A stretch of DNA of 40,053 bases. Source: a virus. The translations under genes and the position numbers were made by a program. This document shows positions 126 to 39,995 of the stretch, piece by piece. The stretch is from positions 1 through 40,053 of the IMG/VR virus record IMGVR_UViG_3300037156_000070; one strand, 5' to 3'. The stretch's first letter is position 1. Every line of letters begins with the position of its first letter. The notes beneath the pieces were generated by a model. The model ran no database searches. It had not been told where the DNA came from and was given only the letters and a program-made list of their open reading frames with translations.

Positions 126-174
126 TGGTATAATTTAAGTAATAGCTCAGACGGCTTAGACCTCTGAGTTTTTT
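126..174 (+). promoter_or_regulatory. Extended -10 promoter with terminator-like leader hairpin (family member 1)
   Basis: The sequence shows TG-G-TATAAT (126-134). Transcription would then start near 141. A 6-bp stem CTCAGA/TCTGAG (146-151 with 163-168) with an ACGGC-containing loop follows, then six T (169-174). A transcript from this promoter meets a terminator-like hairpin after about 30 nt. The same GCTCAGACGGC block recurs at 5595, and related forms occur at 13018, 28551 and 32062. The hairpin could alternatively just terminate the fibre operon, with the promoter nested inside the intergenic space. Confidence 0.65.
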
Positions 175-5360: not shown

Positions 5361-5643
5361 TATACAGGTCCATATTTTTGCAGTGATATGCCGTATAGTT
5401 TGTGCCTGTATTAAATTGTCTGCAATTTCTAATGGGGTTATTTAAGTAGTCTTGTAGGCTACAAAAACTCAAGAAGATTATTGCTGGTATTATCGTATAA
5501 TATATTAAATATTTTATTCGAGCGTACTCCTTAATTTACGTCTACATTATCTCACTTATATATTTAAAGTCAAAGTGGTATAATAGATGCATACGCTCAG
5601 ACGGCTAATGCTATCTGAGTTTTTTATTAAAAAGGAATAACAC
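5361..5643. other. Noncoding intergenic region with promoters and inverted repeats
   Basis: No convincing gene is present on either strand. Visible elements are a 7-bp inverted repeat ATACAGG/CCTGTAT (starting at 5362, second arm near 5403), a near-perfect palindrome TTGTAGGCTACAA (about 5452-5464) and a TATAAT at 5496-5501. Downstream of it is GCGTACTCC (about 5522-5530), the reverse complement of a ribosome site used elsewhere in this genome. The promoter-hairpin at 5576-5625 comes last. A short untranslated RNA from 5496 is possible but weakly supported. Confidence 0.4.
5576..5625 (+). promoter_or_regulatory. Extended -10 promoter with terminator-like leader hairpin (family member 2)
   Basis: TG-G-TATAAT occupies 5576-5584. 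The leader then shows GCTCAGACGGC at 5595-5605, stem CTCAGA (5596-5601) with TCTGAG (5614-5619), and six T at 5620-5625. The stem is identical to member 1 while the loop differs (TAATGCTA against TTAGACC), so the stem and the ACGGC core are what is kept. It drives the coiled-coil and giant polyvalent genes, whose first ATG lies 18 bases past the T-run. Confidence 0.68.
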
Positions 5644-6405: not shown

Positions 6406-9400
6406 ATGGCATCTGCTTCTAAAGCGCTTATAAGCCCTAAGAACTCAGGCCAACTAGATAGTGTCATCGGTCATGGCCCTGATGCTAGTTATAGAAGTTA
6501 CGTTAAGTCAACTGGCGATAACATAATATCTACTGATCAGAGGAAACTTAATAAAGCTCAAACTATAGCAGGCCCAGCAGGATTAAAATCCCCTAAGAAC
6601 TCAGGGCAGCTTGATTCAGTTATAGGCGCAGGCCCAGATGCTAGCTACACTAACTTTGTTAAGCAACAACAGTTATCACAGAAGTTAGTTCAAGCACAAC
6701 AACCGAAACAACCAGCACAACCTAAGCCAGCTCCAGTTCCTAAACAACCAACTCAACCCAAGGCTCAAGTTCCTACACTACCCAAAGGCCAAACAACCAC
6801 TAGTCAACCTTCAGCACCAGCACAGCCTAAAGTTAGTCTAGCTCATCAGATCCTTGGTGCAGTTACGCCTGAATGGAATTTTGCCAAAGGTATGGTACAG
6901 CAAGTCGGGCAGATACAAGATGCTAATCCTATCTCACCAAAGAATGTTGGCAATGTAGTTAAAGCCGGTGCCGGAATAGTTACTGGCAATAAAAAAGCTA
7001 CATCTAATGCAGTAAACAACATTAAGAATACTGAGACAGCACCACTTAAAAGTGTTGGTCAAGGCACAGCTCAGTTTGCTTATGGCCTTGGTGAATCACT
7101 TAACCCAGCAGGCGGTGATGTTAATACTAGAAGTCATACAGCACATAACGCAGTTGAAAAAATTATCCTTGGCCCTAACGCTATACCTTCTTGGCAGAAT
7201 CAATATAAGCAAGACAAAGCACAGCATGGTCAGGCTTATGCAGCAAGCAATATAATACTTAATTCTGTATTAGCGGCACTTGCATTTAAGGGTGCAGGCG
7301 ATAGCGTAGCAGGCAAAGTTAAAAACCTACCAACTGAGAAGACGGTATCAACTTCTTCAGTAGTGCCAAATGATACCGCACGATCATTTTTCAATGAACC
7401 TAATCCAAATATAGATCCACATACTTCAAGCCTATTATCTAAAGCATTGTCCGAGAACAAGTCGCAGTTTACTAGCGAACTTCGTGCCGGTAATGGCGTT
7501 ACTATAAACGAAGTACATACCGTACCAACCGTATATGGCAAGCTACTTAACATTATCAAAGGCAAGATGGATAAAGGCGCACCGCTTACTCCAGCCGAAT
7601 CTGGCGTTGTTAAGACTGCTACAGAGAACCCTAGTCAATTTGTCAGTAAAGAACTTGTCCAACCTAAACAGTTACCAGCCGAAACTCCAGCTCCTGGTAG
7701 TTTGCCACCATTAGAACAACCAAACATAGTATCTCAAGGCATGGCACCTCTTGAAGCACCAACTCAACCACCAGCAATAGAACAACCACTACCACCTCAA
7801 GCAATAACCCCAGCAGAAGCACCGGCACCTCAACCAGAACCAGCACCTGCAACTACATCAACAAAACAAGAGCCACCAGCAACAATTAGCAACGAAGTAT
7901 CTCATGTTACACCGCTAACTAATCTACCTTCAATTATTGCAGATGGACATATTAAGATGGGGTCGGCACCGATAGAAGGCTTTGAAGGTAAAAAAGGTGT
8001 CTATCTACAGAAAGGATCTAAGAATGATTTTTATCATCCTGGAGTAGATAATGCAAAGATAGTCTATAAAGATACTGGATCAATCGGCCCTCATGAAGTT
8101 CATGGTGATCAAGTTAGGACTACTGGTCATCTATCAAGTCATCCTTCAGATGTACACCGCATAGAAGTACCAGACACCAAACTCGCTAAGACATTACAAG
8201 AACATGGATATAACGCAGTAGTTAATAAAGATCTAGCAGCATCTAAGATGAAGGGCGCAGTTAAACACCTAGGTAAAAAGAAGGCAGATGTTAAGATTAC
8301 CTATCCTGAAAAATCTAAATTACCACAACCTATTAAAGAGCGTATGCCAGAAGGCAAGGAAACTAATAAGCTTACTAAGCGTGAACTTGAGAATGTAACA
8401 AGTACAAGTAGCCGACTTGGCGGTATTGGTTGGGATAAAACTAAACTCAAGGAGTTAGTTAAAACTGTCCCTGGGCTTAAGGAACATCCAGTACTAACAG
8501 TTCATATTAACTCTGAGGGCGTACAGTTCCAAGCTAAGATAGGTGTACATGAGTTTAGCATCCCTGCAAAATCTCTAGGGCTTAACGAAGAACGACTAGC
8601 TCAAGCAGATTTTAAAGAGGGTCAGACAGTTGATATTAGCAGCGTACTAGAACCAGGAGCTAACAAAGTTCCGGTTATTAATAAGGGTAAAGCATCCTTT
8701 GAAGGTACGACTGGCGGTTCAAGTAAACCTAAAGTTACTGAACATCCTCTTGATGCGTTACAAGAAAAAGCTAGACAATTTAGTGATCCACAAAAATTCT
8801 ATGATAGCTTAAAACCAGTTGAGCGTGATGTAGTTAGGCAAAACTATCGTAAGAAAGATGGTGAATCTGAGATAGACCTATTCAAGCGAATGATGGAAAG
8901 TTCAGGTGCTAAAATCTCAGAAGGCAAGCCACCAGAGGATGGTTATAAGATGAGTCATAGGCCAAACGAAGACGGCCCAAGAGCGCACAACCTAACTGAA
9001 AGCGATCAGATACCAAAAGATATGTACTCTGAATGGTACGGAAGCCGAGGATCAGTTGCAGATAAACAGTCTATCGCAGCACTTAAAGCTATCAAAGGTC
9101 AACCAAATGCTGAAGTTACTATCTATCGTGCAGCACCAACTAGCAAAATGCGAAGCGGTGATTGGGTTACGTTTTCTAAAGACTATGCTACTAAACATGC
9201 CGAGAGTAATACACTAGCCGGTAATGATCTAAAGGTATACCAGTTTAAAGTTCCAGCTCATGATGTACGGTGGGCGATGGATGACATTAATGAGTTTGGG
9301 TATTACCCACAAAAGAACACAGCTAAATTTGAAGGTACTAGTGGTAGTCGAAGACAAGCACCAAAATCAGGTGCTAAGGTAGATAACATATTCAAGAAGC

Positions 9401-12400
9401 GTGCAGCAGCAAAGGCCGAAAAAACTAAACAAGTTAATCCTATTACTAAGTTTATTAAAAGTACTGAAGCTACCAAGAAGGCAGCCGGTAGCCTTGATGA
9501 TCAGCTCCATGCATTAGGCGGCCAAACTATTGCAGATAATGTAGCGCTCGACCACATGTTTAAAGAAGTTCAGAAGTTAAAGATTAAGCCTGAAGACTGG
9601 AAGGCTATTTATCATTATGCAGAAGATAAAGCATCGCCTATTACCGAGAGTCAGAAGGCTATCTATGAACAAACTATTAAGCCACTTCAAGACGGCATTA
9701 ATACTATGCGTAAAGAAATGGGCCTTAAAGAATTTAGCAATGATGACTTTATCCACCGAGAAGTTATAGGACATGGTGGCCCTATAGATAGGTTCATGGA
9801 AGGTACAAATAAAACTATCAGTACCGGTAATGTACTCAACCGTACTTCTAGCTCAATGAAGACAAGAACCTGGATGAAGTTAGTTGACGGTAAAGGTAAC
9901 TCAAAGATTGTCTCTATCAAATCGCCTAAAGATAAAAAAGGGAAAGTGCTTGGTGGTCAGCAAGTAACAGAGTTCAAGAACGGTATGCAGCATCTAATGG
10001 GCTTACTTAAAAAGAAAATCCCAGATCCTGTTACCGAATTTAATGATCCAGTACTCATGGATCAACTTAATAAAATTGCTGAAGGGTTAGGACTTACTCA
10101 TATTAGAACTAATATTCCACTTAAGCGTGGTGATACTGCAGCAGGTGTTAGCTATGGTGGCACAGGACTTATAAAGACTAAGACAGCATCAGCTCCTGAT
10201 ACATTACTCCATGAAATAGGCCACCAGATAGATGAAAAATATAATCTCTATGACTATATGATTGATCCTGTTCCCAAGGAAACTGTTATGGCTACTAAGG
10301 GTATCAATAAAGGCAAGATGATTACTCGGCCAGTTAAACAAGATTCAGCAGTTGTTGAAGAGCGCAAGACTATCAATCAAGAACTTCGTGATCTAGCTGA
10401 TAAAAGATTAAGCGAAGACAGTTCCAGTAACATGGGGAAGTATGTTCGTAAAGGCGAAGAGAAAATGGCAGTCATGTTCCAAGCATATCTACATGCCCCA
10501 GATATATTTAAGACTGTTGCGCCAACAGCCTTTGATAAATTTGAAGCCTTCCTAAAATCTCATGCTGATACTAAGGCCATAACTACTATAGAGAAATCAT
10601 TACAGTTTGGCCGAGAGACTATTGGTGATGTTCGTCATCAAGGTGAGTTCATAGATAAGAACGGTAAGAAGTGGAAGATTGTAAATGCTACAACTAAAGA
10701 GATTGAAGCTAACAGCAAAACTCGATATATTAAACAACCGTTTGTTACAAGCGCTATAGATTATGTTCAGACAAGACAAGCATTGAGAGCATCGCAATTC
10801 TTAGATAACTGGAAGACTCATCCTAACTTTGAATATAAAGTCCATGAAGACGGTACGACTTCGGGTATAGCTATTAAGTTTGATTCTAAAACTGCTATAC
10901 CAGATGGATGGAAAACTACTACAGCGCTACAGTTCAAGGGTTATTACTTTGAACCTAGAGTAGCCGAAGTATTAGATGACTTTGCTAAGACTGCGGCCAA
11001 GGGTGATCCACTTGGAGCGTTTACTGGCATGAACAATTTTCTTAGAACAACTATTTTCTATAACCCACTGATGCACGTACCAAACATATTCTGGCACGCA
11101 GCAATGCGTAGAGGTGTATCTGGGCTTATTAACCCAGTCAGATTATATAGAGGAGTAACTTCTAGTGTTCAGGCAATAAATGAAGTTATACATACTGGTG
11201 ATCTATACCAAGAAATGTTACGTAATGGCGCACCACTTATGCATTTTGATAGAGATTCAATGTCCAAGAACCTAGGCAAATTAGTTGAGGATGTACTCAA
11301 AGATGATAATACAGCATCTACCCTAGCTAAACTTGGTGGATATGCTAGTAAAGCTAACTTCGTTAAGGCGTGGTATAAGGTATCATCTGGTGTTACTTGG
11401 AGTAGCCACGACTTCTTTATGATGCAGGGGATTATTGAAGAGATGAAGAAAAATGGCATGACGATGGATCAGGCTATTCATGAAGTTACGGCCCACATCC
11501 CAGACTACCGTTTACCAACTAGATTCTTTGGTAGCAGAACGGCTAAGACTACTCTATCTAATCACAACGTAACAATGTTCCTACCATATCACTATGGCAT
11601 CTGGAAGAGTTACGCCAATACTATTAGAGAGATTGCAGGATTTGAACCACGTGGCGGATATAAGAGAACTGGTTGGTCAGGTAAGGCCAAGACCTCAGCG
11701 CATGGTATAGATAAATTAATCATGGCCGGTTTAATTATGCTTGTTATTTATCCAATGTTAGATAAGTTAGCTCAAAAAATATCTGGCGTACCTGGAGCTA
11801 TCGTTAGGCGTGCAGGGCCGTTTACCTTCCCTTATGCAGTTTATGAAATGCTAGAAGGTAATAAATCTCTCGCTTCAACAGTTCAGACGATGGTGCCAAC
11901 GCCACCAGGAACTAAGGCAGCAATAGAGTTAGCACGTAACAGAGATGATCTTAACCGTCAGATCTGGAACCCAAGCGATGCATTTACTAACCCAGTTCAG
12001 GCAGCTAAAGATGTTGGATCGTTTGTTGCAGGCACTATAGCGCCAGTCAGTAAAGCTAAACAAGCTACTAATGGCAAGTTAAGTGCAAAGCAATTTGGCG
12101 AAGGAGCAATTGGCATCCAGACCCCAGATCATACTAAGACTTTAGTTAATCAGCTATACAGTCAGCAATTAAACACCGGTGTCCAGAGCAAGGCACAACA
12201 ACGTGCAGCAGCAGCAAAGAACGCAGCCAGGGATCAAATAGCCCAAGGCAAAGGTGATTCTCTCGCTAAACAACTAGTAGCTAACGGCACTATTACTCAG
12301 GCTAAATTAAAAGCCTTTGAAGCTACTGCAAAATGGACTCCAGTTCAACGTACCTTTGATGCGCTTAGTCCGGTCAACAAACTCCAGGTATTACAGAAGA

Positions 12401-12996
12401 CAAGTCCGAGCAACTGGTCAGAACTATTTACTGATAAAGGTGCATTAATTAAAGAAGCTCAGAAGCAATCTAATAATAAGCATGGATCGGCAGCTAATCG
12501 TGCAGCAGCCGGTGATGTAGTCAAGGTGCTTAATGGTGATAAGAGTGGCTACAGTTTTACTTCAGGTACAACAACAACCAATGAAGGATTCCTGCAGACT
12601 GTATCGGCTTATGCATCGGCCTTTGGCACAAGTCCTAAGACAGCATTTAATCGCATCCTAACCGGCCAGCGTATACTTCGTACAGAGAATGGAGCTATTA
12701 TAGTTCAGCGTATGCCACTCGCCACCTCTTCAAAGATTAGGGTTCAGCTTGGCTCACAAAAGGCCAGTGTACCTATGCAGTTAGATCATATTATCCCACT
12801 AGAGATTGGCGGATCAAATGATATATCTAACCTACAACTGATACCAAAGTCTCAGGATGAAGCTAATAACCCTGTTGAAGATTACCTCGGTAAACAGTTA
12901 CAGGCCGGTAAGTTAAATGCTAAACAAGCACAAACTTTGATGCTTGATTATAAGCATGGCAAAATTACTGATCAGCAGGTTTACAATCACAAGTAG
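6406..12996 (+). CDS. Giant polyvalent protein: ART-like, HExxH metallopeptidase and HNH-like modules
   Basis: A 2196-residue protein and the largest gene here. It has a duplicated repeat SPKNSGQLDSVIGxGPDASY at about 10-29 and 62-81, then Pro/Gln-rich linkers to about 490. A module with HVTPLTNLPSIIADGHI (from 500) may be related to ADP-ribosyltransferases. A clearer ART-PolyVal-like module has TIYRAAP (R908) and NEFGYYP (E963). A zinc metallopeptidase motif HEIGH sits at 1269-1273, with a possible third ligand in GEEKMAVMFQAYL. A transmembrane helix lies near 1769-1788, and an HNH-like end reads LDHIIPLEIGGSNDISNLQL (from 2126). Such polyvalent proteins are known in phages and plasmids and are thought to enter the host with the DNA. 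Sites of cleavage between modules are unknown. Confidence 0.75.
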   Translation: MASASKALISPKNSGQLDSVIGHGPDASYRSYVKSTGDNIISTDQRKLNKAQTIAGPAGLKSPKNSGQLDSVIGAGPDASYTNFVKQQQLSQKLVQAQQPKQPAQPKPAPVPKQPTQPKAQVPTLPKGQTTTSQPSAPAQPKVSLAHQILGAVTPEWNFAKGMVQQVGQIQDANPISPKNVGNVVKAGAGIVTGNKKATSNAVNNIKNTETAPLKSVGQGTAQFAYGLGESLNPAGGDVNTRSHTAHNAVEKIILGPNAIPSWQNQYKQDKAQHGQAYAASNIILNSVLAALAFKGAGDSVAGKVKNLPTEKTVSTSSVVPNDTARSFFNEPNPNIDPHTSSLLSKALSENKSQFTSELRAGNGVTINEVHTVPTVYGKLLNIIKGKMDKGAPLTPAESGVVKTATENPSQFVSKELVQPKQLPAETPAPGSLPPLEQPNIVSQGMAPLEAPTQPPAIEQPLPPQAITPAEAPAPQPEPAPATTSTKQEPPATISNEVSHVTPLTNLPSIIADGHIKMGSAPIEGFEGKKGVYLQKGSKNDFYHPGVDNAKIVYKDTGSIGPHEVHGDQVRTTGHLSSHPSDVHRIEVPDTKLAKTLQEHGYNAVVNKDLAASKMKGAVKHLGKKKADVKITYPEKSKLPQPIKERMPEGKETNKLTKRELENVTSTSSRLGGIGWDKTKLKELVKTVPGLKEHPVLTVHINSEGVQFQAKIGVHEFSIPAKSLGLNEERLAQADFKEGQTVDISSVLEPGANKVPVINKGKASFEGTTGGSSKPKVTEHPLDALQEKARQFSDPQKFYDSLKPVERDVVRQNYRKKDGESEIDLFKRMMESSGAKISEGKPPEDGYKMSHRPNEDGPRAHNLTESDQIPKDMYSEWYGSRGSVADKQSIAALKAIKGQPNAEVTIYRAAPTSKMRSGDWVTFSKDYATKHAESNTLAGNDLKVYQFKVPAHDVRWAMDDINEFGYYPQKNTAKFEGTSGSRRQAPKSGAKVDNIFKKRAAAKAEKTKQVNPITKFIKSTEATKKAAGSLDDQLHALGGQTIADNVALDHMFKEVQKLKIKPEDWKAIYHYAEDKASPITESQKAIYEQTIKPLQDGINTMRKEMGLKEFSNDDFIHREVIGHGGPIDRFMEGTNKTISTGNVLNRTSSSMKTRTWMKLVDGKGNSKIVSIKSPKDKKGKVLGGQQVTEFKNGMQHLMGLLKKKIPDPVTEFNDPVLMDQLNKIAEGLGLTHIRTNIPLKRGDTAAGVSYGGTGLIKTKTASAPDTLLHEIGHQIDEKYNLYDYMIDPVPKETVMATKGINKGKMITRPVKQDSAVVEERKTINQELRDLADKRLSEDSSSNMGKYVRKGEEKMAVMFQAYLHAPDIFKTVAPTAFDKFEAFLKSHADTKAITTIEKSLQFGRETIGDVRHQGEFIDKNGKKWKIVNATTKEIEANSKTRYIKQPFVTSAIDYVQTRQALRASQFLDNWKTHPNFEYKVHEDGTTSGIAIKFDSKTAIPDGWKTTTALQFKGYYFEPRVAEVLDDFAKTAAKGDPLGAFTGMNNFLRTTIFYNPLMHVPNIFWHAAMRRGVSGLINPVRLYRGVTSSVQAINEVIHTGDLYQEMLRNGAPLMHFDRDSMSKNLGKLVEDVLKDDNTASTLAKLGGYASKANFVKAWYKVSSGVTWSSHDFFMMQGIIEEMKKNGMTMDQAIHEVTAHIPDYRLPTRFFGSRTAKTTLSNHNVTMFLPYHYGIWKSYANTIREIAGFEPRGGYKRTGWSGKAKTSAHGIDKLIMAGLIMLVIYPMLDKLAQKISGVPGAIVRRAGPFTFPYAVYEMLEGNKSLASTVQTMVPTPPGTKAAIELARNRDDLNRQIWNPSDAFTNPVQAAKDVGSFVAGTIAPVSKAKQATNGKLSAKQFGEGAIGIQTPDHTKTLVNQLYSQQLNTGVQSKAQQRAAAAKNAARDQIAQGKGDSLAKQLVANGTITQAKLKAFEATAKWTPVQRTFDALSPVNKLQVLQKTSPSNWSELFTDKGALIKEAQKQSNNKHGSAANRAAAGDVVKVLNGDKSGYSFTSGTTTTNEGFLQTVSAYASAFGTSPKTAFNRILTGQRILRTENGAIIVQRMPLATSSKIRVQLGSQKASVPMQLDHIIPLEIGGSNDISNLQLIPKSQDEANNPVEDYLGKQLQAGKLNAKQAQTLMLDYKHGKITDQQVYNHK

Positions 12997-12999: not shown

Positions 13000-13048
13000 T
13001 GGTACATTAAAGGCATAGCTCAATACGGCCATCTGTGCCGTATTTTTT
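13000..13048 (+). promoter_or_regulatory. Promoter with 8-bp leader hairpin and T-run (family member 3)
   Basis: A weaker extended -10, TG-G-TACATT (13000-13008), begins 3 bases after the giant gene's stop. The leader has GCTCAATACGGC (13018-13029). Here AATACGGC (13022-13029) pairs perfectly with GCCGTATT (13037-13044) across a 7-nt loop, followed by T to 13048. The ACGGC core sits inside the stem rather than in the loop as in members 1 and 2. It also looks like a fully competent intrinsic terminator for the upstream gene. Confidence 0.65.
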
Positions 13049-14259: not shown

Positions 14260-15099
14260 ATGCTTTTATTCAAAGATATTTCATACGCTCAAGGCAACTA
14301 CAATATGGATGCCAATACGGATCCAATGGTTATGATGAAGATGGCCGGTGGCGATGGTGTTACTACTCCTCTCTACTTCGATAACGAAGCGGCAGCCAAT
14401 TATAATAAAGCGATCCGAGCGAATAAGATTCCTTTTATGTATTACTTCTATGGTGGTGGCGATCCAGTTACTGAAGCTAACTTCTTTATCCGAGCATGTT
14501 CACCTCTAGCTGTTGGCGATGGCCTAGCACTAGACATCGAGCGTGGCACCAGATGGAATCCACAAACAGATCCAGGTGCAGTTCAAAAAGTACTAGCCTT
14601 TGTTACTAGGATCCATGATGTTACCGGAGTATGGCCTTGGGTATATATGAATATGTCAACTGCAAATATGTATGACTGGAGTCCAGTCTTTAACCTATGC
14701 GCCTTCTGGTGTGCAGCACCAAGTTTTGGGTTCAACGATACGCTTCCAGTTAAATACCCTCAAACAGCACAACAAGGCCCAGTAGTTAATGGACAAGATA
14801 CAGATGCAGCCTTTGTTCCTGATCTTGATCATCTTAAGAAGTTTACTTATCAAGGTGGCCCACAAGTTCCAGTTCAACCACCGGCACCAACTCCACCCCC
14901 AGTAGTAACACCACCGGCACCTGTTCCACCAGTAGTAACACCGGATCCAGTTCCAACGCCTACACCACCAGTTGTTACCCCAGATCCAGTACCACCAGTA
15001 GTAAATCCACCGGCTCCATCAAAGCCAAACTTTATCCAGTCTCTAATCTCAGCAATAGTTAATTTAATAAGAGCCTTTTTTACAGGGAGTAAAAAATGA
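14260..15099 (+). CDS. Endolysin, GH25-type muramidase with proline-rich linker and C-terminal helix
   Basis: A 279-residue cell-wall hydrolase. Residues 1-200 follow the GH25 lysozyme plan: an opening DISYAQG (D6), the catalytic pair in LALDIERG (D92 and E94), an aromatic YMNMSTANMYDW strand and W150 in FWCAAPSFG. A proline-rich repeat linker of PPAPxPPVVTP type spans about 203-262. The final 17 residues (NFIQSLISAIVNLIRAFF) form an amphipathic or hydrophobic helix. There is no N-terminal signal, so holin release is expected. Enzymes of this family cut the glycan chain between MurNAc and GlcNAc. The C-terminal helix instead of a wall-binding domain is unusual. The ribosome site is AAAGGAAA. 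Confidence 0.85.
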   Translation: MLLFKDISYAQGNYNMDANTDPMVMMKMAGGDGVTTPLYFDNEAAANYNKAIRANKIPFMYYFYGGGDPVTEANFFIRACSPLAVGDGLALDIERGTRWNPQTDPGAVQKVLAFVTRIHDVTGVWPWVYMNMSTANMYDWSPVFNLCAFWCAAPSFGFNDTLPVKYPQTAQQGPVVNGQDTDAAFVPDLDHLKKFTYQGGPQVPVQPPAPTPPPVVTPPAPVPPVVTPDPVPTPTPPVVTPDPVPPVVNPPAPSKPNFIQSLISAIVNLIRAFFTGSKK

Positions 15100-20687: not shown

Positions 20688-20696
20688 TGGTATAAT
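20688..20696 (+). promoter_or_regulatory. Extended -10 promoter of the hairpin RNA and tRNA
   Basis: TG-G-TATAAT begins at 20688, with the hexamer at 20691-20696. It faces away from the leftward promoter, with transcription expected from about 20703. No good -35 is seen, which the TGn extension can offset. Confidence 0.7.
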
Positions 20697-20702
20697 TATA
20701 GT

Positions 20703-20759
20703 TCAGTGTCATTAGGATGATTGCGTACTCCAACTCTTTTAACCTAATGACACTTTTTT
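20703..20759 (+). ncRNA. Small hairpin RNA with anti-ribosome-site loop
   Basis: A perfect 11-bp stem GTGTCATTAGG (20706-20716) with CCTAATGACAC (20743-20753) ends in six T (20754-20759), giving a terminated RNA of about 57 nt. The 26-nt loop carries ATTGCGTACTCC (20720-20731). It is the exact complement of GGAGTACGCAAT at 21235-21246, the ribosome site and first two bases of the start codon of the 21245 gene. Nine of these bases also match the sites before 22528 and 20619. It could be a trans-acting translational repressor or, more simply, a terminator with a chance loop. Confidence 0.55.
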
Positions 20760-20761
20760 GT

Positions 20762-22071: not shown

Positions 22072-22365
22072 ATGTCAAACGCATCAAATATCAACCCTAA
22101 ATTTGATTACCTTCTATGCGAAGAGGTCAAAGAAGTAAGTGGCGTTGTTACGTCAACTGAAATCTCAGATCATTGGCAGAAGTATCGAGTCCTAGCAGTT
22201 GGCCCAGGTAGATACCAAGAAGGAACTTTTGTTCCTACTACTACCGAAGTAAACGATGTTATATATGTTCAAAAACACGCAGAAGCTGATAGCCCTGAAG
22301 ATCTAAAACAGCGTGGCCTACACCTGATAATGGAATCAAGGGTTATGGCAAATGTTGAAGCATAG
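22072..22365 (+). CDS. groES: Phage GroES-like co-chaperonin
   Basis: A 97-residue protein following the GroES fold from end to end. Strand FDYLLCEEVKE (11-21) leads to the mobile-loop position SGVVTSTE (23-30, with V25-V26 replacing the usual I-V-L contact). Then come YRVLAVGPGR, TEVNDVIYVQKHAE and the ending HLIMESRVMANVE, close to cellular IMSESDILAIVE. Co-chaperonins cap the GroEL ring and enclose the substrate. A GroEL homologue lies 517 bases downstream, with two small genes between them. AAGGAGCC is the ribosome site. No cellular CIRCE control is seen. Confidence 0.85.
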   Translation: MSNASNINPKFDYLLCEEVKEVSGVVTSTEISDHWQKYRVLAVGPGRYQEGTFVPTTTEVNDVIYVQKHAEADSPEDLKQRGLHLIMESRVMANVEA

Positions 22366-22528
22366 TGCCAAAGTTAAAAGAGCTAGGCGTTTTCAGCTCC
22401 ATGAACCTTCGAGTTCGTTATTTCATACAAATGGTTGGCTATTACGTAGAGCTTATATTGCGGAAAGAGTAAGGCGAAAGAATATCCGGATCAAATATTA
22501 TATAGAACTTAAAAAAGGAGTACGCTAA
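22352..22528 (+). CDS. Small basic protein, 58 aa
   Basis: This gene overlaps the groES end by 14 bases in another frame and shares TAATG with the following gene. It fills an otherwise empty 162-base gap. The product is strongly basic (MLKHSAKVKRARRFQLHEP..., WLLRRAYIAERVRRKNIRIK) and may bind nucleic acid. The next gene's ribosome site AGGAGTACGC lies inside its last codons. No family is recognised. Confidence 0.6.
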   Translation: MLKHSAKVKRARRFQLHEPSSSLFHTNGWLLRRAYIAERVRRKNIRIKYYIELKKGVR

Positions 22529-22878
22529 TGTTTATAAGCAAGAAAAATTATTATGATTTACATCAGCGGTTAAATGTCCTAGAGGATTATGCCGAAAAAG
22601 ACTTTAAGCGTTTTGGTGAATATAAGGGAGACATTGATAAGTTGAATGATGTTGTATTCCACTCTAAAAAAGACTCGGACAGGATTTATCCATCCTTGCT
22701 AGAGAGATTATGGTTGAATCCAAAGCCCAAAGAGTCAAATGCTATCAGCATACTAAATGATAAATTTGAGTTAGCCATGAACTACTTAGGCATATCTGTA
22801 TATAAGAAGTCAGCAACCGATGAACATTTAGCAGTAAAGTCAATTAAAAAACCAGTTAAGAAAGTTAAGAAAGGATAA
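22528..22878 (+). CDS. Coiled-coil hypothetical protein, 116 aa
   Basis: Located between the co-chaperonin and chaperonin genes. It is helical (NYYDLHQRLNVLEDYAEKDF, SILNDKFELAMNYLGI) with a Lys-rich end (SIKKPVKKVKKG). A partner or substrate adaptor for the chaperonin is conceivable by position only. Its ribosome site GGAGTACGC is a nine-base match to the small RNA loop at 20723-20731. Confidence 0.6.
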   Translation: MFISKKNYYDLHQRLNVLEDYAEKDFKRFGEYKGDIDKLNDVVFHSKKDSDRIYPSLLERLWLNPKPKESNAISILNDKFELAMNYLGISVYKKSATDEHLAVKSIKKPVKKVKKG

Positions 22879-22882
22879 TATC

Positions 22883-24505
22883 GTGGCCAGAGGTGAGACC
22901 AAGGTAATCAATCATAAAGCTCAAGACAAGATCGTTAAAGGTGCAGAAGCTGTATATAAGGCAGTAGCTAGAGTTTACGGCCCGACAAGTTCAAACGTAG
23001 CTATCCAGCGTAATTACGGCTATCCAACCGTAACTCATGATGGTGTTACTGTAGCTAGAGAAGTATTCTTAAAAGATCCAGTTGAAGACATTGGTGCAGG
23101 ACTTCTAGTTCAAGCATCAGATAAAAGTAATAATATCTCAGGCGATGGTACTAGCTGTACTGTTATGCTTGCTTACCACGTAATGGCCGGAGCTAGACAA
23201 AGCGCAGCAGCAGGATTCAATATCATGAAGCTAAGACGAGGTATCGATAAAGCATCTATAGACATTAAGGCCGAGTTAGATAAGTTAGCTAGAGAAGTAC
23301 CAGACAAAGAGTTATCTCAAGTCGCAGCAATCTCAGCTAGTGATCCAGAGATTGGTAAACTTGTAGCAGATACAGTCCTTAAGGTTGGTGGTGTTGGTAT
23401 CACCGTAGAAGAGTATGAAGGACTTGGAGTTATTGAAGATGTTGTTGAAGGTGTTTACTTTGAGCAAGGATGGGCGATGCCGCACTTCGTTACTGATCGT
23501 ACCACCGAAGAAGCTGTACACGCCAACCCAAATATCCTTATTGTTGAAAAGAAGCTTAAACAGAACCAAGACATCGTGCCAATAATTGAGATGGTATTTA
23601 AAGATGCAGCCGAAAAGACCCTAATCATTATCGGTCATGTAGATGGACAGGCCCTAGAGACTTGCGCCTTAACTAACCTAAACGGTGGAGTTAAACTCTG
23701 TGTCATTAAACCGCCAGTATATGGTGATCAAGAGTTGCCCTTCCTAGAAGACATCGCAGCAATGACTGGCGGCAAGTTAGTCCAGCAATCACTTCCATCA
23801 GATAAAGTAACTATCGACTACCTAGGCCAAGCATCAAAGATTACCATAGCCAAAGATCATACAACCATCCTTAACGGTAAGGGTGTTCAAGAAGACATAG
23901 ACAATCGGATCGATGACCTTAAGAAGCAAATGCTATCAGATAAGTATAGTGCCTTCCAAAAGGAACGCATGGAGTTCCGCCTAGCTAAACTTCAAGGTAA
24001 GATCGGTATCATCCGAGTTGGTGGTGCTACTGAGTCAGGCCAGAAGGAAATGAAGTTCCGAGTAGAAGATGCAGTACATGCAACACGTGCAGCAAAAGAA
24101 CAGGGGATTATCCCTGGCGGTGCTACAACTCTAGCTCGACTATCTACACTACCAGTTCCAAAGAACCTAAACGCTGATGAAGCTCAAGGTTATAGGGTAG
24201 TACTCGAAGCTTTAACTGAACCATTTAAACAGTTGATGGCTAATGCCGGTGATGATGGTGGCTATAAACTACAGCAAGTCCTAACTTCAGAACCAGGATA
24301 TGGATTCAATGTTACTAAGATGGGATCAGAACCTATTGACCTATTCAAAGAAGGCATAGTGGATCCAGTTAAGGTAATTAAGTCAGTAGTAGAAAATGCC
24401 TGTGATGTTGCCGGTATTGCAGTTACGATTCCAACAACCATAACCATAGATCGAGAAGCACAGCTTGAACAGATAGCAATGAATAAGGCACAGATCGGTA
24501 ACTAG
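22883..24505 (+). CDS. groEL: Phage GroEL-like chaperonin
   Basis: This 540-residue protein uses a GTG start. It has the GroEL ATP-site residues in order: YGPTSSNV (32-39), HDGVTVARE with D53, GDGTSCT with D88 and RVEDAVHATRAA with D396, equivalent to the cellular hydrolysis aspartate. LRRGIDKA and the GGA/PGGA segments are kept. Differences are TSS in place of the usual KGR in the LGPKGRNV motif and no GGM-rich C-terminal tail (it ends MNKAQIGN). Chaperonins fold proteins in a sealed ring. With its own GroES-like gene in the same operon it may fold capsid or other phage proteins. Ring size and dependence on host GroES cannot be read from sequence. Confidence 0.92.
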   Translation: MARGETKVINHKAQDKIVKGAEAVYKAVARVYGPTSSNVAIQRNYGYPTVTHDGVTVAREVFLKDPVEDIGAGLLVQASDKSNNISGDGTSCTVMLAYHVMAGARQSAAAGFNIMKLRRGIDKASIDIKAELDKLAREVPDKELSQVAAISASDPEIGKLVADTVLKVGGVGITVEEYEGLGVIEDVVEGVYFEQGWAMPHFVTDRTTEEAVHANPNILIVEKKLKQNQDIVPIIEMVFKDAAEKTLIIIGHVDGQALETCALTNLNGGVKLCVIKPPVYGDQELPFLEDIAAMTGGKLVQQSLPSDKVTIDYLGQASKITIAKDHTTILNGKGVQEDIDNRIDDLKKQMLSDKYSAFQKERMEFRLAKLQGKIGIIRVGGATESGQKEMKFRVEDAVHATRAAKEQGIIPGGATTLARLSTLPVPKNLNADEAQGYRVVLEALTEPFKQLMANAGDDGGYKLQQVLTSEPGYGFNVTKMGSEPIDLFKEGIVDPVKVIKSVVENACDVAGIAVTIPTTITIDREAQLEQIAMNKAQIGN

Positions 24506-25530: not shown

Positions 25531-25857
25531 ATGACAGATACAGCACCAGCAAAAGAAGAAATTAAGGGTCAAGAATTTAATTTAAAACCTACCGAGACTC
25601 AGCTATTAGTTATTACTCAAAATAACCAGCAAGCAGTCTTCGCAGCAATCCTAAGTCAAATAGCAGTAGATCGACTAGGCTATCAAGTAACAGACCGTAC
25701 TCAATTTAAACTAAGCCCAGCATTAGATAAAATGGAGATAGGCGAATTACCTGAACCACCAGTACCTACAGCTAAAGCCGATACTCCAGCAACACAAGTA
25801 GATCAACCACCAAATCCACCTAAGCCACCAAAAAGTGGTGTAGTCGCAGCAGCATAA
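25531..25857 (+). CDS. Hypothetical protein with proline-rich tail, 108 aa
   Basis: AAAGGAG precedes the ATG. A short folded-looking region (about 14-60, with TETQLLVITQNNQQAVFAAI) is followed by a Pro/Ala/Thr-rich tail (PEPPVPTAKADTPATQVDQP...) and AAA at the end. No family is recognised. It is the last gene before the packaging genes and may belong to the late or early block. Confidence 0.5.
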   Translation: MTDTAPAKEEIKGQEFNLKPTETQLLVITQNNQQAVFAAILSQIAVDRLGYQVTDRTQFKLSPALDKMEIGELPEPPVPTAKADTPATQVDQPPNPPKPPKSGVVAAA

Positions 25858-26495: not shown

Positions 26496-26576
26496 ATGAC
26501 CATCTGTCCTGATTGTGGCCTAGAGTACATTAACAATATATATAAACCTCATGAGTGTAAGCCAACCAATGACTGA
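26496..26576 (+). CDS. 26-aa zinc peptide between terminase genes
   Basis: The ORF encodes MTICPDCGLEYINNIYKPHE and six further residues with a final Cys. The ATG follows the small terminase stop directly. CPDC and HEC (C4, C7, H19, C21) could bind one zinc. It overlaps the start of the large terminase and may couple its translation. Confidence 0.5.
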   Translation: MTICPDCGLEYINNIYKPHECKPTND

Positions 26577-28248
26577 AGAAGAACTTAAACAGCAGGAAGA
26601 GATGAAGGCAACGATGCATATCCTTAGCCCTGCAGCTTGGGTATTAGATAACAACTTCATTAATGAGAACCAGCAACCCTTTGAGTTCGACTTACACCGG
26701 TTCATGATCCAACCATATAACGATACGCATCCGGATCAAGTTATCATGAAGTCAGCACAAGTTGGTTGGAGTGTTGCAGCTATTATCAAATCTATTCATG
26801 CAGCCAACTTCCGTAAACTCAATGTTATCTATGTATTACCAACACGTAATGCTACTCACGACTTCGTTATACCTAAAGTAAACCCTATGCTTGATCGTAA
26901 TCCATTGCTTAAAGACATGCTCAAGAATACCGATAGCATCCACTTGAAGGCAGTTGGTGATCGTTTTATCTACTTCAGAGGAGCTTTTCATCGTGGTGAA
27001 GCTATCTCAACTACAGCAGATCTAGTCGTATCTGATGAGCATGACATCAGTGATCAGAACGTGCTTAGTATCTATCAGTCAAGATTACAGTCATCAACCT
27101 TCGGTTGGATGTGGCGATTCTCTAATCCATCATTGCCATCGTTTGGTGTTAGCGAGCTATACGAAGACAGTGATCAAATGCATTGGATCATTAAATGCCC
27201 GCATTGTGGTTGGCAAATGTACATTGACTTTGAGAAGGATCGACAGATAGGCAATCACTTCCTAGATCAAGTTAAGGTTCAGTATGTTTGTGGCAGATGC
27301 GAAAAAGAACTAGACAATGACGATAGGCAGTCAGGTCAATGGATAGCCAAATACCCTAATCGTGAGCGCAGAGGTTATTGGATCAATCAGTTGATGGTGC
27401 CTTGGGTATCAGCTAAGAAGATACTTCAACAGCAAGCAAGCATGGAGACAGATGTATTCTATAACTTCGTGCTTGGCCTACCTTGGCAAGCATCAGAGTA
27501 TATCATTAACGGTGAAGCTATCCTTAGAGCTTGTGATCCTGGCCTTGCTGATATGACAGACGTTATCATTGGATGCGACTCAGGTAAGACTAAACACTGG
27601 GTAATGGGTAATGCTCAAGGTGTCTTCGCTTATGGCACTACAACCGACTGGGATGATATAGAACGCCTTATTAAAATGTATAACGCAACTGCAGTCATTG
27701 ATGCATTACCGGACTTTACGATACCTGAACAGTTAGCACGCAAATATCCAGGCCAAGTCTTCGTACACTACTACACGCATGACTCCAAGAGCTTGAATGT
27801 TACTGAGCGCAAAGAAGGTGAACAGTTTGGCGTACTTCAATCAGATAGAACCAAGTTATTCGATAACCTTGCAGCACGTATCACTGGCGGCAAGATGCGA
27901 TTCTTCCAGAATAAGGATGCATTACAAGATCTAATTGATCATTTTGAAACGATGTACCGAGTTGTTGAAGCTGATACACGTGGCATCAAGCGTGCTAGAT
28001 GGGAGACAAAGATTGGCAAAGCTGATCATTACGCTCATGCAACAGCTTATTATCTAGTTGGCTTATCTATGGCGCTGTTGGTTGGTGAAGCCGGTGGTGT
28101 TAAACCTAATGCACCAGCGAAGCAAAAGACTACATTTAAGGTTGATCCAGTTACCATGAAAGTACCTGTTGAAGATGCATTAGGTAGGCCATTTAATGCA
28201 ATGATCGAAAAATCATTAGCACGAAACAAAAGACATAAGGTATCATAA
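26551..28248 (+). CDS. Terminase large subunit, GpA-like
   Basis: A 565-residue packaging motor. The ATPase part has a deviant Walker A MKSAQVGWSVAA (about 66-77) and Walker B LVVSDEHD (158-165, acidic D162-E163). A zinc finger CPHC (216-219) with CGRC (247-250) is typical of the GpA family, to which lambda gpA belongs. The nuclease part has IIGCDSGKTKHWV (about 346-358), AVIDALPD (about 384-391) and the end DHYAHATAYY. It cuts concatemers and drives DNA into the prohead. An in-frame ATG at 26569, overlapping the zinc peptide stop, is an equally possible start; neither has a clear ribosome site. Confidence 0.9.
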   Translation: MSVSQPMTEEELKQQEEMKATMHILSPAAWVLDNNFINENQQPFEFDLHRFMIQPYNDTHPDQVIMKSAQVGWSVAAIIKSIHAANFRKLNVIYVLPTRNATHDFVIPKVNPMLDRNPLLKDMLKNTDSIHLKAVGDRFIYFRGAFHRGEAISTTADLVVSDEHDISDQNVLSIYQSRLQSSTFGWMWRFSNPSLPSFGVSELYEDSDQMHWIIKCPHCGWQMYIDFEKDRQIGNHFLDQVKVQYVCGRCEKELDNDDRQSGQWIAKYPNRERRGYWINQLMVPWVSAKKILQQQASMETDVFYNFVLGLPWQASEYIINGEAILRACDPGLADMTDVIIGCDSGKTKHWVMGNAQGVFAYGTTTDWDDIERLIKMYNATAVIDALPDFTIPEQLARKYPGQVFVHYYTHDSKSLNVTERKEGEQFGVLQSDRTKLFDNLAARITGGKMRFFQNKDALQDLIDHFETMYRVVEADTRGIKRARWETKIGKADHYAHATAYYLVGLSMALLVGEAGGVKPNAPAKQKTTFKVDPVTMKVPVEDALGRPFNAMIEKSLARNKRHKVS

Positions 28249-28530: not shown

Positions 28531-28578
28531 TGATATACTGTTTTTAATATGCTCATACGGCTAACAAGCTATAGGAGC
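28531..28578 (+). promoter_or_regulatory. Promoter with ribosome-site-capturing leader (family member 4)
   Basis: TG-A-TATACT (28531-28539) and GCTCATACGGC (28551-28561). Unlike the others it has no T-run. GCTC (28551-28554) can pair with GAGC (28575-28578), which includes the AGGAG (28573-28577) of the portal gene, whose start is a TTG at 28586. The hairpin would thus hide the ribosome site. The short 4-bp outer stem makes the pairing tentative. Confidence 0.5.
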
Positions 28579-28585
28579 AATTCCC

Positions 28586-30757
28586 TTGGATCCAATGTCA
28601 GCACCACTACCAGGCGAGATACAACTTAGTGCCAACGAAGCTCAAGTTGTTATATTTGATTTAAAGATAGATGATAATGAACTACTAGGACTAATCCGCA
28701 GTCCTATTCGAGATAGTGAAGCATACTGGAACGATACCTTTAAACTTAAGAAGGTACGCCATGAGAACATGAATCTCTGGCTACCAAACCACTGGAAAGA
28801 TAAAGATGTTTACGACTTCCAAGAAGAGTATCTATATCAAGATCCACGTATCTTTACTGCAGTTGAATCAATCGCATCAGTAGTCAACTCACGTATTCCA
28901 CAACCTGATGTTATGCCAGGCCAAGACAATGTAATTAGTAAACAGATAGCAACTGATGTTCAGAAGGTATTATTTGCTCATAGTACCAAGTATCAAACAC
29001 CGGACATATTTAGGATTGCAGCACGTAACTTACTCTTAAAGCGTGTTGGCTTTGTGAAGCTTAGATGGGATCCATCAAGAGGTGAGCATGGTGATGTTGT
29101 TCCGGAGCATGTATCACCTGAAGATGTTGTTGTTGACCAAGATGCACGATGGGGTGATATACCTCGGTTCATAGCTCAGAGGATCAAGAACAAAACTGGT
29201 GAAGAGCTTATTGCAATGTTCCCTGATCAGAAGCAAGCGATACTTGCATTACTTGGAGCTAAACGCCAGAACTCTAAGGGTGATCTAGTTGCCTACAAGT
29301 CAATGCTTGGTAAGAAGAAGAATATCTGGGAAGTTTGGTTCAAGTATTATGATGAAGAGTCAGGCAAGTATAGCGGTGGCCTAGCCTATGTTGATGAGAT
29401 GTTCCAAACAGTACTCGGCAAGATGCGTAATCCTAACTGGAACTATGAAGATGAGAATACCAAAGGCGAGTGTTCAAACTTACTCGACTTCCCAGAACCA
29501 CCATTTATTCCTCTTAACTACCTGAACGATGGCACAAGCTACATTGACCTTACAACTCTAGTTGAACAGGCAGCACCACTACAACGTATCTTAGATAGGC
29601 GTGGATTCCAGATCATGGAAAATGCCGAGATGGCAGGATCAGGACTGATATTCAATACTCAGATGATCAAGAAGGAAGACATCGCCAAACTTACTGGATC
29701 ACCTGATGAGCGCATTGGTGTTAAAGGTAACGTCAACCAAGCTGTTATGCGTATCGCACCACCACCACTACCTCAATACGTTATTGAAGACAAGCAAGAT
29801 GCCAGGAACGAGATGGACAACATCTTTGCAACTCATGACATTACACGTGGTCAGAACTCAGACAATGTAACTCTTGGTCAGGATCAACTACAAGTTAGCC
29901 AGGATTACACAAGGATGGGCGATATTGCACGTGCTGTTGAACGCATGGCAACTAAGTATTATCGATACCTAGTCCAGATGATGAAGGTCTACTACACAGA
30001 CGAGCATTGGTTCTGGGCAGCCGGTGAAGACGGACAGTTTGATCGAGTCATGATGAAGTCAGACATGATTGAAGACGGCATTGACGTTAGTGTTGAAGCT
30101 GATTCTACATTGCCACCAAACAAAAAGGATCAGATGACCTTTGCAATGGAACTAGCGCCACTAGGCTTAATTGATCCACTATCTATGTTTGAGGTTGGAT
30201 CAGGTGGCGTATTGCCTAGTCCTAAGAAGATGCTTGAGCGATTAGTTAAATGGAAGATGGATCCAATGTCCTTCGTACAAGACACCCAAGATGCAGACTT
30301 CGATAGGCTTGCGTTTATGGATATACAAGTATTACTTCGTGGCGAGATGCCAAAGGAACGTGATCTAATTAGTCCTGAGTATCTATCATTCCTCAACAAG
30401 TACATGACTTCAAATGGTGAGTTCATGCATCAACCAGATAAGACTAAACTTCTATTCATCGAGTGGGCGCATCAATGTACTGTAATCGCACAACGTCAGA
30501 TGCAAGCAATGATGAGTCAGTTACCAACTCAACAAGATATGCAGAACGCTAACCAGCAAGCCATCCAACAGAAGCAAACAGTTGACCAACTACAACCTAG
30601 CCAACCACCACAACCAGGCGCACCAAGTCCAGGTGGCGCTCCAGCTCCATCCCCAGCAGGATCAGGCGGGTCTGATCTAGCTAGAGGATTAATCCAAGCA
30701 CAGCAACAGGGGAATCCAACGCCACCACCAACTGGTCGACCACAACCAGGTGTATAA
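28586..30757 (+). CDS. Portal protein
   Basis: The 723-residue protein starts with TTG, using AGGAG at 28573. The N-terminal half has the portal pattern DSEAYWNDTFKLKKVRHENM (about 43-62) and DPRIFTAVESIASVVNSRIP, then the helical wing KQIATDVQKVLFAHSTKY. The middle has ISPEYL-like and MEQAAPLQRILDRRGFQIM stem segments. The C-terminal about 70 residues are Gln/Pro-rich (QPSQPPQPGAPSPGGAPAPS). Portals form the twelve-fold DNA gate and nucleate the head. The next structural genes are the scaffold and capsid. The proline-rich tail is longer than usual. Confidence 0.82.
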   Translation: MDPMSAPLPGEIQLSANEAQVVIFDLKIDDNELLGLIRSPIRDSEAYWNDTFKLKKVRHENMNLWLPNHWKDKDVYDFQEEYLYQDPRIFTAVESIASVVNSRIPQPDVMPGQDNVISKQIATDVQKVLFAHSTKYQTPDIFRIAARNLLLKRVGFVKLRWDPSRGEHGDVVPEHVSPEDVVVDQDARWGDIPRFIAQRIKNKTGEELIAMFPDQKQAILALLGAKRQNSKGDLVAYKSMLGKKKNIWEVWFKYYDEESGKYSGGLAYVDEMFQTVLGKMRNPNWNYEDENTKGECSNLLDFPEPPFIPLNYLNDGTSYIDLTTLVEQAAPLQRILDRRGFQIMENAEMAGSGLIFNTQMIKKEDIAKLTGSPDERIGVKGNVNQAVMRIAPPPLPQYVIEDKQDARNEMDNIFATHDITRGQNSDNVTLGQDQLQVSQDYTRMGDIARAVERMATKYYRYLVQMMKVYYTDEHWFWAAGEDGQFDRVMMKSDMIEDGIDVSVEADSTLPPNKKDQMTFAMELAPLGLIDPLSMFEVGSGGVLPSPKKMLERLVKWKMDPMSFVQDTQDADFDRLAFMDIQVLLRGEMPKERDLISPEYLSFLNKYMTSNGEFMHQPDKTKLLFIEWAHQCTVIAQRQMQAMMSQLPTQQDMQNANQQAIQQKQTVDQLQPSQPPQPGAPSPGGAPAPSPAGSGGSDLARGLIQAQQQGNPTPPPTGRPQPGV

Positions 30758-32040: not shown

Positions 32041-32092
32041 TGATATATTCTTAGGTAAGTAGCCCATACGGCCAGAACGTATGGGTTTTTTT
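32041..32092 (+). promoter_or_regulatory. Promoter with 8-bp leader hairpin and T-run (family member 5)
   Basis: TG-A-TATATT (32041-32049), then GCCCATACGGC (32062-32072). CCCATACG (32063-32070) pairs perfectly with CGTATGGG (32078-32085) across a 7-nt loop, followed by seven T (32086-32092). It directly precedes the major capsid gene, the most highly expressed gene expected. A terminator between promoter and coding sequence there is striking. Confidence 0.68.
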
Positions 32093-35888: not shown

Positions 35889-36659
35889 ATGGACGATCCA
35901 TTTAAGACCGCTAGCTCACTTGTGGGCGACTTAAAGGTTGAATACAATAAGCTCAATAAAGAATTACCTAGACTTAGGGAATTGTATAAAGGGGCGAAGT
36001 CTGATCTTGATGCTATTAATCGAGATACTATTTCTGCTCAAGAGAAGTTGGATAAACTGCTTGAAGATATTAAAGTCAATACGGAAACATATAATAAGTG
36101 GCAGGCAGATGAATACGCTAAATTAAATAAAACCAGACTAGATATTAAGACTGATCGTAAGGCGCTAGATAATGATAAAGCCGAACATATTACCTCTGTT
36201 AATAATCATTTGAAAATGGCTGGAATTGCCGACTCTCAGATACGTTCAGAGCGACAATCAATTGATCAGGATCGTAAAGAAGTTCAAGGCCAACAATCGG
36301 TTAATAATAAATGGGCCGAAAAACTTAAACTTCAAGAGATCAAGAATAGCGAGACTAAAACACTTGCTGATAACAGGGATAAAGAACTCGATGAACGCTC
36401 TAATAAATTAGATATACGCGAACAATCTATCGCTGGTGCTGAAGAAGAAGCCGCCAAGATTATTGCTGATGCTGAAAAGGAACGTAACTCAGCTAGGGTA
36501 ATACTCTCTGATGCTAAAGAAACAGTTGCAAACAATGATGCACGTGAGCAAGCGAACGACATTAAAGAACGCCTACTAGATGAACGGGAAAGAAAACTTA
36601 ACAAGATAAAAGCTGGCCTAGATGATAGGGCTGGCGTACTTAGTTCTAACAGTCTATAA
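35889..36659 (+). CDS. Long coiled-coil virion protein
   Basis: The 256-residue protein is mostly helix with continuous charged heptads. Examples are VEYNKLNKELPRLRELYKGA near the start, KEVQGQQSVNNKWAEKLKLQ in the middle and GAEEEAAKIIADAEKERNSA (about 180-199). It is too short for a full tape measure protein. An internal or connector-associated protein is plausible. The last bases form the TATAAT of the next promoter. Confidence 0.5.
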   Translation: MDDPFKTASSLVGDLKVEYNKLNKELPRLRELYKGAKSDLDAINRDTISAQEKLDKLLEDIKVNTETYNKWQADEYAKLNKTRLDIKTDRKALDNDKAEHITSVNNHLKMAGIADSQIRSERQSIDQDRKEVQGQQSVNNKWAEKLKLQEIKNSETKTLADNRDKELDERSNKLDIREQSIAGAEEEAAKIIADAEKERNSARVILSDAKETVANNDAREQANDIKERLLDERERKLNKIKAGLDDRAGVLSSNSL

Positions 36660-36683
36660 TATAATCAATATGCTCTATCGGCC
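36655..36683 (+). promoter_or_regulatory. Promoter with degenerate leader motif (family member 6)
   Basis: TATAAT occurs twice in a row (36655-36660, overlapping the stop, and 36660-36665), then GCTCTATCGGCC (36672-36683). The motif is near the same distance as in the other members but lacks a paired 3' arm and T-run. It precedes the repeat-rich structural gene. It may be a decayed copy. Confidence 0.4.
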
Positions 36684-36707
36684 AAACTCTTTTAATTTAA
36701 GGTTATT

Positions 36708-37538
36708 ATGGCTAAAGAGACACAAGGCGTCGATCCTAATTACGGTAGAACACTTCAGGGAATGGATCTTTCTACTGGTAAACTCCCGACTAATGTATAT
36801 GTTGATGAGTCAACACATAGGCTAATGGTTAATGCCGTTATCTCAGGTGGTGCCGCAAGTGATGGCGCAATCGTTGATGGTGCCGGATCTGGCAATAAAG
36901 CCGGTGTAATTCAGTCAGTTACGACTCCTGGCATCTATGGTGTCGTTATTGTTAATGCCGATGGATCTGCAGTTGGTGGTGGTGGCGGTGGTGGCGGAAC
37001 TCAGTATGTTGATGGAGTAGCACAACCAACTCATCCAACCGGTAATGCATTAGTTTATGGTAATGGCGCAAACATGACGGCCGTATCATCTACAACTCCT
37101 TTACCTGTAAGCGGAACATTCTGGCAAACAACTCAACCGGTATCAATAGCAACTATGCCAAGTACTCCTGTTACGGGTACCTTCTGGCAGGCCACACAAC
37201 CAGTTAGTGGCACAGTTACGTCCAATATCTCTGGCTCAATAAGCAACACTTCATTCAATGCGACAACACCATTAACAACTCAAACGATAGGCCAGACAAC
37301 ATCTAACACCACGCAAGTTCAACTTACGGCATCTTCAATCGTACCTAGTAATGGTGTAACTATTCAGGCATTATCTACTAATACTGCTAGTATATTTGTA
37401 GGTATAACAGGAGTACTAACTACTACAGGATTTGAACTTCAGGCTGGACAACAGATGCAATTTGCACCAACTAACGCTAACTTAATGTATATAATAGGAG
37501 CTAATGCAACCGATAAAGTTTGCTACTTAATATCATGA
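36708..37538 (+). CDS. Repeat-containing tail or head structural protein
   Basis: This 276-residue protein has a charged N-terminus with MAKETQGVDPNYGRTLQGMD. A run of eight Gly appears near 90-97, and then tandem SGTFWQTTQPVS-like repeats (two copies at about 130-160) of a type found in many phage structural proteins. The C-terminal beta region ends ANATDKVCYLIS. AAGG is the only ribosome site. It overlaps the fibre start (ATGA at 37535). A surface or tail-associated role is inferred. Confidence 0.6.
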   Translation: MAKETQGVDPNYGRTLQGMDLSTGKLPTNVYVDESTHRLMVNAVISGGAASDGAIVDGAGSGNKAGVIQSVTTPGIYGVVIVNADGSAVGGGGGGGGTQYVDGVAQPTHPTGNALVYGNGANMTAVSSTTPLPVSGTFWQTTQPVSIATMPSTPVTGTFWQATQPVSGTVTSNISGSISNTSFNATTPLTTQTIGQTTSNTTQVQLTASSIVPSNGVTIQALSTNTASIFVGITGVLTTTGFELQAGQQMQFAPTNANLMYIIGANATDKVCYLIS

Positions 37539-39928: not shown

Positions 39929-39930
39929 TA

Positions 39931-39979
39931 TGTTATAATTTAATTAATAGCTCAGACGGCTCAGACCTCTGAGTTTTTT
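39931..39979 (+). promoter_or_regulatory. Right-end copy of the promoter-hairpin (member 1)
   Basis: TG-T-TATAAT (39931-39939), stem CTCAGA (39951-39956) with TCTGAG (39968-39973) and six T (39974-39979). It differs from the left copy only at neutral positions. Confidence 0.7.
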
Positions 39980-39995
39980 ATTTTAAAAGGATCAT

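Follow-up and report, generated by a model that had tools for sequence, protein, structure and literature searches.

A conserved promoter-linked leader element ahead of phage late genes and its possible role in attenuation

Leader sites and the genome that carries them

Six late transcription units of the virus record IMGVR_UViG_3300037156_000070 (positions 1 to 40,053, that is, the whole stretch of 40,053 bases analysed here and called the window) carry a promoter together with a short leader element, all of them on the + strand, and a seventh copy belongs to a 248-bp overlap of the record ends. In the layout of a site, an extended -10 promoter is followed after about 7 nt by a pyrimidine-A pair and then by GCYC-N2-4-CGGC at the presumed 5' end of the RNA. 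We propose, with a probability of roughly 0.4, that these leaders serve promoter-proximal attenuation of the late genes, in which a putative factor would allow readthrough by means of the 5' element. All six sites that an earlier note on this DNA had described as a promoter followed by GCYCA and ACGGC are present, with GCYCA lying 9-12 nt past a TGnTATAAT-like -10 box and ACGGC after it (ATCGGC at 36655). The hairpins ending in T that the same note had seen at four of them were also found, since a hairpin runs into 6-7 T at 126, 5576, 13000 and 32041 and not at 28531 or 36655.

The first site (126..174, +) has its extended -10 at 126-134, a presumed start at about 141 and the element GCTCAGACGGC at 145-155, and its hairpin (stem 146-151/163-168, T run 169-174) stands before an HNH/tail unit with the start codon at 191. 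A second copy lies at 39931..39979 (+) in the overlapping record end; the last 248 bases (39806-40053) repeat 1-248 with three mismatches (positions 128, 139 and 157), so that 126 and 39931 are one locus, and the mismatches between both copies spare the -10 hexamer, the element and the stem. All three mismatches fall within 30 bases of this first leader site. The repeat probably means that the genome, some 39.8 kb long, is circular or terminally redundant and that population variants of it exist. At the second site (5576..5625, +) the extended -10 occupies 5576-5584 and the element 5595-5605, and the stem CTCAGA/TCTGAG is followed by a T run to 5625; downstream lies the 252-aa gene (5644) of a unit encoding proteins of 252 and 2196 aa. 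The larger protein (6406-12996) gave no confident family match, with a weak HNH match near the C-terminus, and is similar to its relatives in parts only. The third site (13000..13048, +), before the endolysin-containing unit (13067), comprises an extended -10 at 13000-13008, the element GCTCAATACGGC at 13018-13029 and a stem 13022-13029/13037-13044 leading into a T run.

Before the portal gene (28586) the fourth site (28531..28586, +; extended -10 28531-28539, element 28551-28561) forms a short leader lacking a T run. The fifth (32041..32092, +; extended -10 32041-32049, element GCCCATACGGC at 32062-32072) precedes the major capsid gene (32118) with the stem CCCATACG/CGTATGGG and a T run. The sixth and weak site (36652..36708, +), with the -10 TATAAT at 36655-36660 and the element GCTCTATCGGC at 36672-36682, is devoid of a long hairpin and lies before a 276-aa gene of the tail region (36708). 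The downstream units, namely HNH/tail, 252-aa plus 2196-aa, endolysin, portal, capsid and tail region, agree with the former statement that the sites precede late genes. In another part of the window (20688-20760) an extended -10 promoter is followed by a long AGTGTCATTAGG...CCTAATGACACTTTTTTG hairpin and a T run in the absence of the GCYC..CGGC element; this site could produce a short RNA of its own.

The genome further encodes the terminase large subunit (26551-28248), the portal (28586-30757), the major capsid protein (32118-33182), a GH25 endolysin (14260-15099), RecT and YqaJ on the minus strand, a tRNA-Gln and a GroEL-like chaperonin (22883-24505). A Cpn10-like gene adjoins that of the chaperonin within 22072-24505, and chaperonin genes occur likewise in the TM7 phage, in MW202566 and in every long relative. 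Among named phages the nearest capsid protein is that of TM7 phage DolZOral124_53_65 (36%), assigned to a TM7/Saccharibacteria host, and the next that of MW202566 (32.5%). These two phages both encode a chaperonin as well, and from these resemblances a Saccharibacteria-like host is plausible for the phage. A terminase query against viral contigs retrieved no relatives, and against genome contigs the capsid alignment gave no relative and the strict motif 0 matches.

Conservation, folding and covariation of the leaders

Relatives were collected through the capsid gene (57-79% identical) and by motif searches, which yielded 49 sites in 16 related records, as a list curated by hand and not automatically, with 13 matches removed as coding or poorly placed. 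The curated sites keep to a single strand within each record and lie 26-61 nt ahead of the start codon. The pattern TANNNT-N9-12-GCYC-N1-3-CGGC occurs 29 times in five near-complete genomes, where 71 permuted motifs averaged 0.97 occurrences with a maximum of 7. When 2 mismatches were allowed, the loose pattern GCYCANNNACGGC showed no enrichment in the window (32 vs 28 expected). The pattern TAAYANGCTCANACGGC, an extended form of the element searched with no -10 attached, requires an extra base and for that reason cannot find the common TAATAGCTCA form; in newly fetched loci it gave only matches lacking TATAAT upstream and served as a negative control, and scans with AATAGCTCANACGGC and two variant cores added only more parts of known relatives and the doubtful record L292. 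The earlier note would have given up its proposal if related phages lacked the core, and the family of promoters with leader hairpins is conserved in them. The ACGGC core on which it insisted is likewise conserved in relatives, although this definition is too narrow, as CCGGC, TCGGC, TAGGC and TTGGC also occur. In one related record, G002 (IMGVR_UViG_3300042991_000223, 47966 bases), the portal leader and the capsid leader each occur twice in diverged form (47016/5240 and 44044/2214), so that the record is either longer than one genome or a mix of two variants.

Of the 49 sites, 41 have a pyrimidine-A pair 6/7 nt past the -10 and 7 have it at 7/8 nt. From what is known of sigma70 promoters we take the A of this pair to be the transcription start, and therefore the element would span roughly +3 to +17 of the RNA.

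The more distant record G007 (capsid 57%) has the core GCCC..TGGC and strong terminators. MW202566 and L276 (capsid 32-34%) use the same promoter type with a different leader sequence that ends TAAAGCAG, AGAGCAG or similar, and in their clearest cases a hairpin, a U tract and a ribosome-binding site succeed one another after it. Repeated leaders resembling TAAAGCAG follow promoters at 13949 and 24743 of L005 and at 4549 and 10872 of L276, several with a hairpin and a T run. No such leaders were found in the TM7 phage MG269973. The succession of promoter, hairpin, U tract and ribosome-binding site seems, by comparison of these genomes, to be older than any one sequence, which would fit a recognition factor that diverged together with its site.

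In order to evaluate the folding, each leader was taken from the presumed start to the start codon and the sequence past the element was shuffled 300 times with the element fixed. At 24 of the 49 sites a hairpin whose 5' arm is formed by the element stands ahead of the ribosome-binding site and leads into a U tract, and about half of the sites have the element and no terminator. The 24 U-tract leaders fold with a mean z of -2.7 (combined p 2e-19) and 21 short leaders (26-38 nt) of the terminator-free kind modestly better than chance, with a mean z of -1.3 (combined p 3.5e-6), both combined values overstating independence as the sites are related to each other. Leader lengths fall into two classes of 26-38 and 44-61 nt, a split made without four sites, three of them from the distant record G007. 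One hairpin is counted per leader. In the same genomes 29 other extended -10 matches gave a mean z of -0.81, compared with -2.58 for the motif sites under an identical test (p 2e-5), and at several of these element-free promoters the ribosome-binding site follows directly and the leader is nearly unstructured. When the element alone was shuffled to see whether it masks the Shine-Dalgarno sequence in the short class, the effect was not significant (0.40 vs 0.43 unpaired, p 0.15).

Covariation was analysed in 14 aligned leaders of the orthologous capsid gene. Their 10-pair terminator stem forms in 90.7% of cells, against 69.2% in shuffled alignments, both partners have changed in six of the 10 pairs, and covariation scores 0.605, where shuffled alignments give 0.216 and slid versions no more than 0.125. 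That the stems covary, as had been claimed from the window, is borne out in these orthologues. One relative has two leaders in which CCGGC replaces ACGGC and the 3' arm carries the matching change. The terminator hairpin is thus kept by selection. The arm itself differs by site: some sites use CTCAGA, others use AATACGGC, CACACGGCA or ACGGCACA and one uses GCTCAAACG, and the pairing register shifts between sites as the element sequence stays. The element is also present in leaders devoid of a stable hairpin (36655 in the window and 12688 in L268). Because the register varies and the element remains constant, the comparison indicates that the element is conserved for more than pairing. A mini-hairpin of 3 bp that overlaps the terminator arm could form between its GCY and its GGC; three capsid-gene leaders show the double change ACC..GGT and three other leaders have the outer pair broken, and as most sites were found via the GCYC pattern only the capsid-gene leaders found by protein are unbiased in this respect. 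At -0.7 to -3.1 kcal/mol the mini-hairpin is weak by itself, and it would depend on a partner. The leaders are so compact that hairpin and element are bound to overlap to some extent.

Proposed mechanism and its rivals

The attenuation mechanism that we propose would start with the host RNA polymerase, which may transcribe the late genes from the extended -10 promoters and produce transcripts beginning, if the start site is correctly placed, with a 5'-terminal element of about AAYA-GCYC-N2-4-CGGC. At many promoters, those of the capsid, tail and lysis units among them, this element would double as the 5' arm of a predicted intrinsic terminator, ending the RNA some 35-45 nt from the start and ahead of the ribosome-binding site, so that most transcripts would abort there by default. 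Infection would bring a factor, a phage protein being the likeliest candidate, that might then recognise the constant 5' element outside the long stem, perhaps as the small GCY/GGC hairpin; its binding would let the polymerase read through late in infection and turn on the late genes together. Leaders that have the element and no terminator would have to answer the same factor by another route, which is the weakest step. In favour of this mechanism we count the 49 sites with one orientation per record, the pyrimidine-A pair at 41 of them, the folding of the U-tract leaders, the covariation, the varying register, the less structured element-free promoters and the architecture of distant relatives, and against it the weak mini-hairpin, the terminator-free half of the sites, the non-significant Shine-Dalgarno masking and the forced overlap. 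Attenuation or antitermination had been suggested before, and it stands as the best reading of a promoter-hairpin family that is real and conserved, even though it is unproven and its factor putative.

The lead for such a factor is an 86-aa double-CxxC protein (28253-28513, +) encoded between terminase and portal and conserved in the motif-bearing phages, which we regard as a candidate only. G007, the record in which the core is altered, encodes a diverged form of it, and a similar but more distant protein is present in MW202566. The searches gave neither a family match nor a match to Com, and structure predictions of the protein alone and with 5 sequences reached a pLDDT of 43, the models not being usable. 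A 108-aa protein (25531-25857) is also common to the motif-bearing phages, and BLAST finds none in the TM7 phage or MW202566.

Several other explanations have to be weighed against attenuation. A constitutive leader that protects the mRNA or boosts translation, like that of T7 gene 10 and involving no switch, is conceivable if unlikely: the hairpin starts about 3-8 nt from the presumed 5' end, where it might slow decay, and is followed before the late genes by a U/A-rich stretch, which could aid ribosome binding, and the ribosome-binding site. Such a leader accounts neither for the constant element where no hairpin forms nor for the U tracts that abut the stems and should terminate. That the hairpin is just the upstream terminator, stopping read-through from the preceding unit with the next promoter sitting by chance before it and no regulation involved, had been raised as the alternative in the earlier note, and no other strong terminator is listed from the upstream gene to these promoters in the window. 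An insulator of this kind would nevertheless stop the RNA of its own promoter too, and elsewhere in the window the order is terminator (34839-34862) and then promoter (34864-34872); the persistence of the element at terminator-free sites and the varying register weaken the idea further, and we hold it to be quite unlikely.

Sites lacking a local terminator would be explained by a 5' element that loads a processive antitermination system and modifies the polymerase to ignore local and later terminators, as in lambda nut, HK022 put or Q-like systems, and terminator-like sites do lie further downstream (e.g. 34839 and 16063). We regard this as very unlikely, given that no Q, N or put-like feature was recognised in about 25 scanned proteins and an Rfam scan, and that the put site is much longer than the leader element. 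The least probable of these rivals is an operator or an initially transcribed part of the promoter, read as duplex DNA by a phage regulator. The tight coupling to the promoter and the conservation where no hairpin forms would suit it, but the distance to the -10 varies by several nt with the start pair fixed and the inner gap varies as well, unlike a rigid DNA site, and the orthologous leaders covary as RNA stems. Attenuation through a leader peptide was set aside, the leaders being just 26-61 nt, as was an antisense sRNA, for the window holds no full complement of the element and promoter-linked matches on the + strand only.

A broader version of the attenuation proposal, which we consider unlikely, is a phage-wide late regulon in which one phage factor reads a minimal 5'-terminal RNA element of 10-13 nt, existing in lineage-specific versions, and the outputs are interchangeable, being a terminator in some leaders and translation or processive antitermination in others. 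If the attenuation proposal is true, many copies of one tiny leader element, and neither a lone Q-type site nor a phage polymerase, would switch the late genes, and the leaders offer a compact and testable set with which to find the factor. If the protective leader is right, a natural family of strong late-mRNA leaders is at hand. Our literature search found no paper on late promoters of Saccharibacteria phages or on late gene regulation in this phage group.

Comparison with known systems

The leader of T7 gene 10 has a 5' hairpin, a U/A-rich spacer and a strong ribosome-binding site on a late phage mRNA, and the present leaders share the succession of these parts before late genes. T7 uses its own polymerase and its gene 10 leader hairpin is not a terminator, whereas most of the clear leader hairpins described here are terminator-like. 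The small phage zinc-finger protein Com of Mu acts on a hairpin at the translation start of the mom mRNA (PMC6483171); a conserved double-CxxC protein is encoded here too, although the candidate has no sequence match to Com and most clear hairpins are terminators. The SAS (start-associated sequence) of Cluster K mycobacteriophages lies 3-7 bp before start codons with a proposed role in translation initiation, and SAS/ESAS consist of a 13-bp GGGATAGGAGCCC-like sequence (PMC3203893). Both systems are short asymmetric repeats upstream of many phage genes in one main orientation, half of them with inverted repeats; the element here differs in sequence and position, being tied to a promoter and lying 26-61 nt before the start codon.

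As in the lambdoid Q and PR'-tR' system, a late phage promoter is followed by a terminator that has to be passed, and a phage factor is expected near the start. The Q of phage 21 recognises DNA at a site lying between -35 and -10 and depends on a pause sequence that resembles a -10 (PMC6606751), whereas the constant element here is transcribed as part of the leader and many promoters carry a copy of it. The aligned sites share no sequence between -35 and -10 apart from the TG of the extended -10, and no Q-family protein was recognised among about 25 scanned proteins. With the ANTAR/EutV sites, which have two hairpins with conserved loop residues (PMC3369931), the leaders have in common a small conserved RNA hairpin feature that overlaps terminators across a regulon. 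They differ in having a single element, 10-13 nt long, at the 5' end of the RNA, and with one hairpin per leader no dual-hairpin ANTAR site is formed. An Rfam scan of the window matched no known leader or riboswitch at the gathering score and gave only a tRNA. The features of a generic intrinsic-terminator attenuator, that is, a stem and a U tract within the leader and ahead of the coding region, are present in 24 of the 49 sites. The leader variant appears to match no described family among those tested, and the kind to which it would belong, attenuation or antitermination, is already known. As there is no dual-hairpin ANTAR site, no Q homologue among the scanned proteins and no Rfam match, the leaders would not be members of those families by the features tested; in their working they most resemble promoter-proximal attenuation or antitermination as known from Q and ANTAR.
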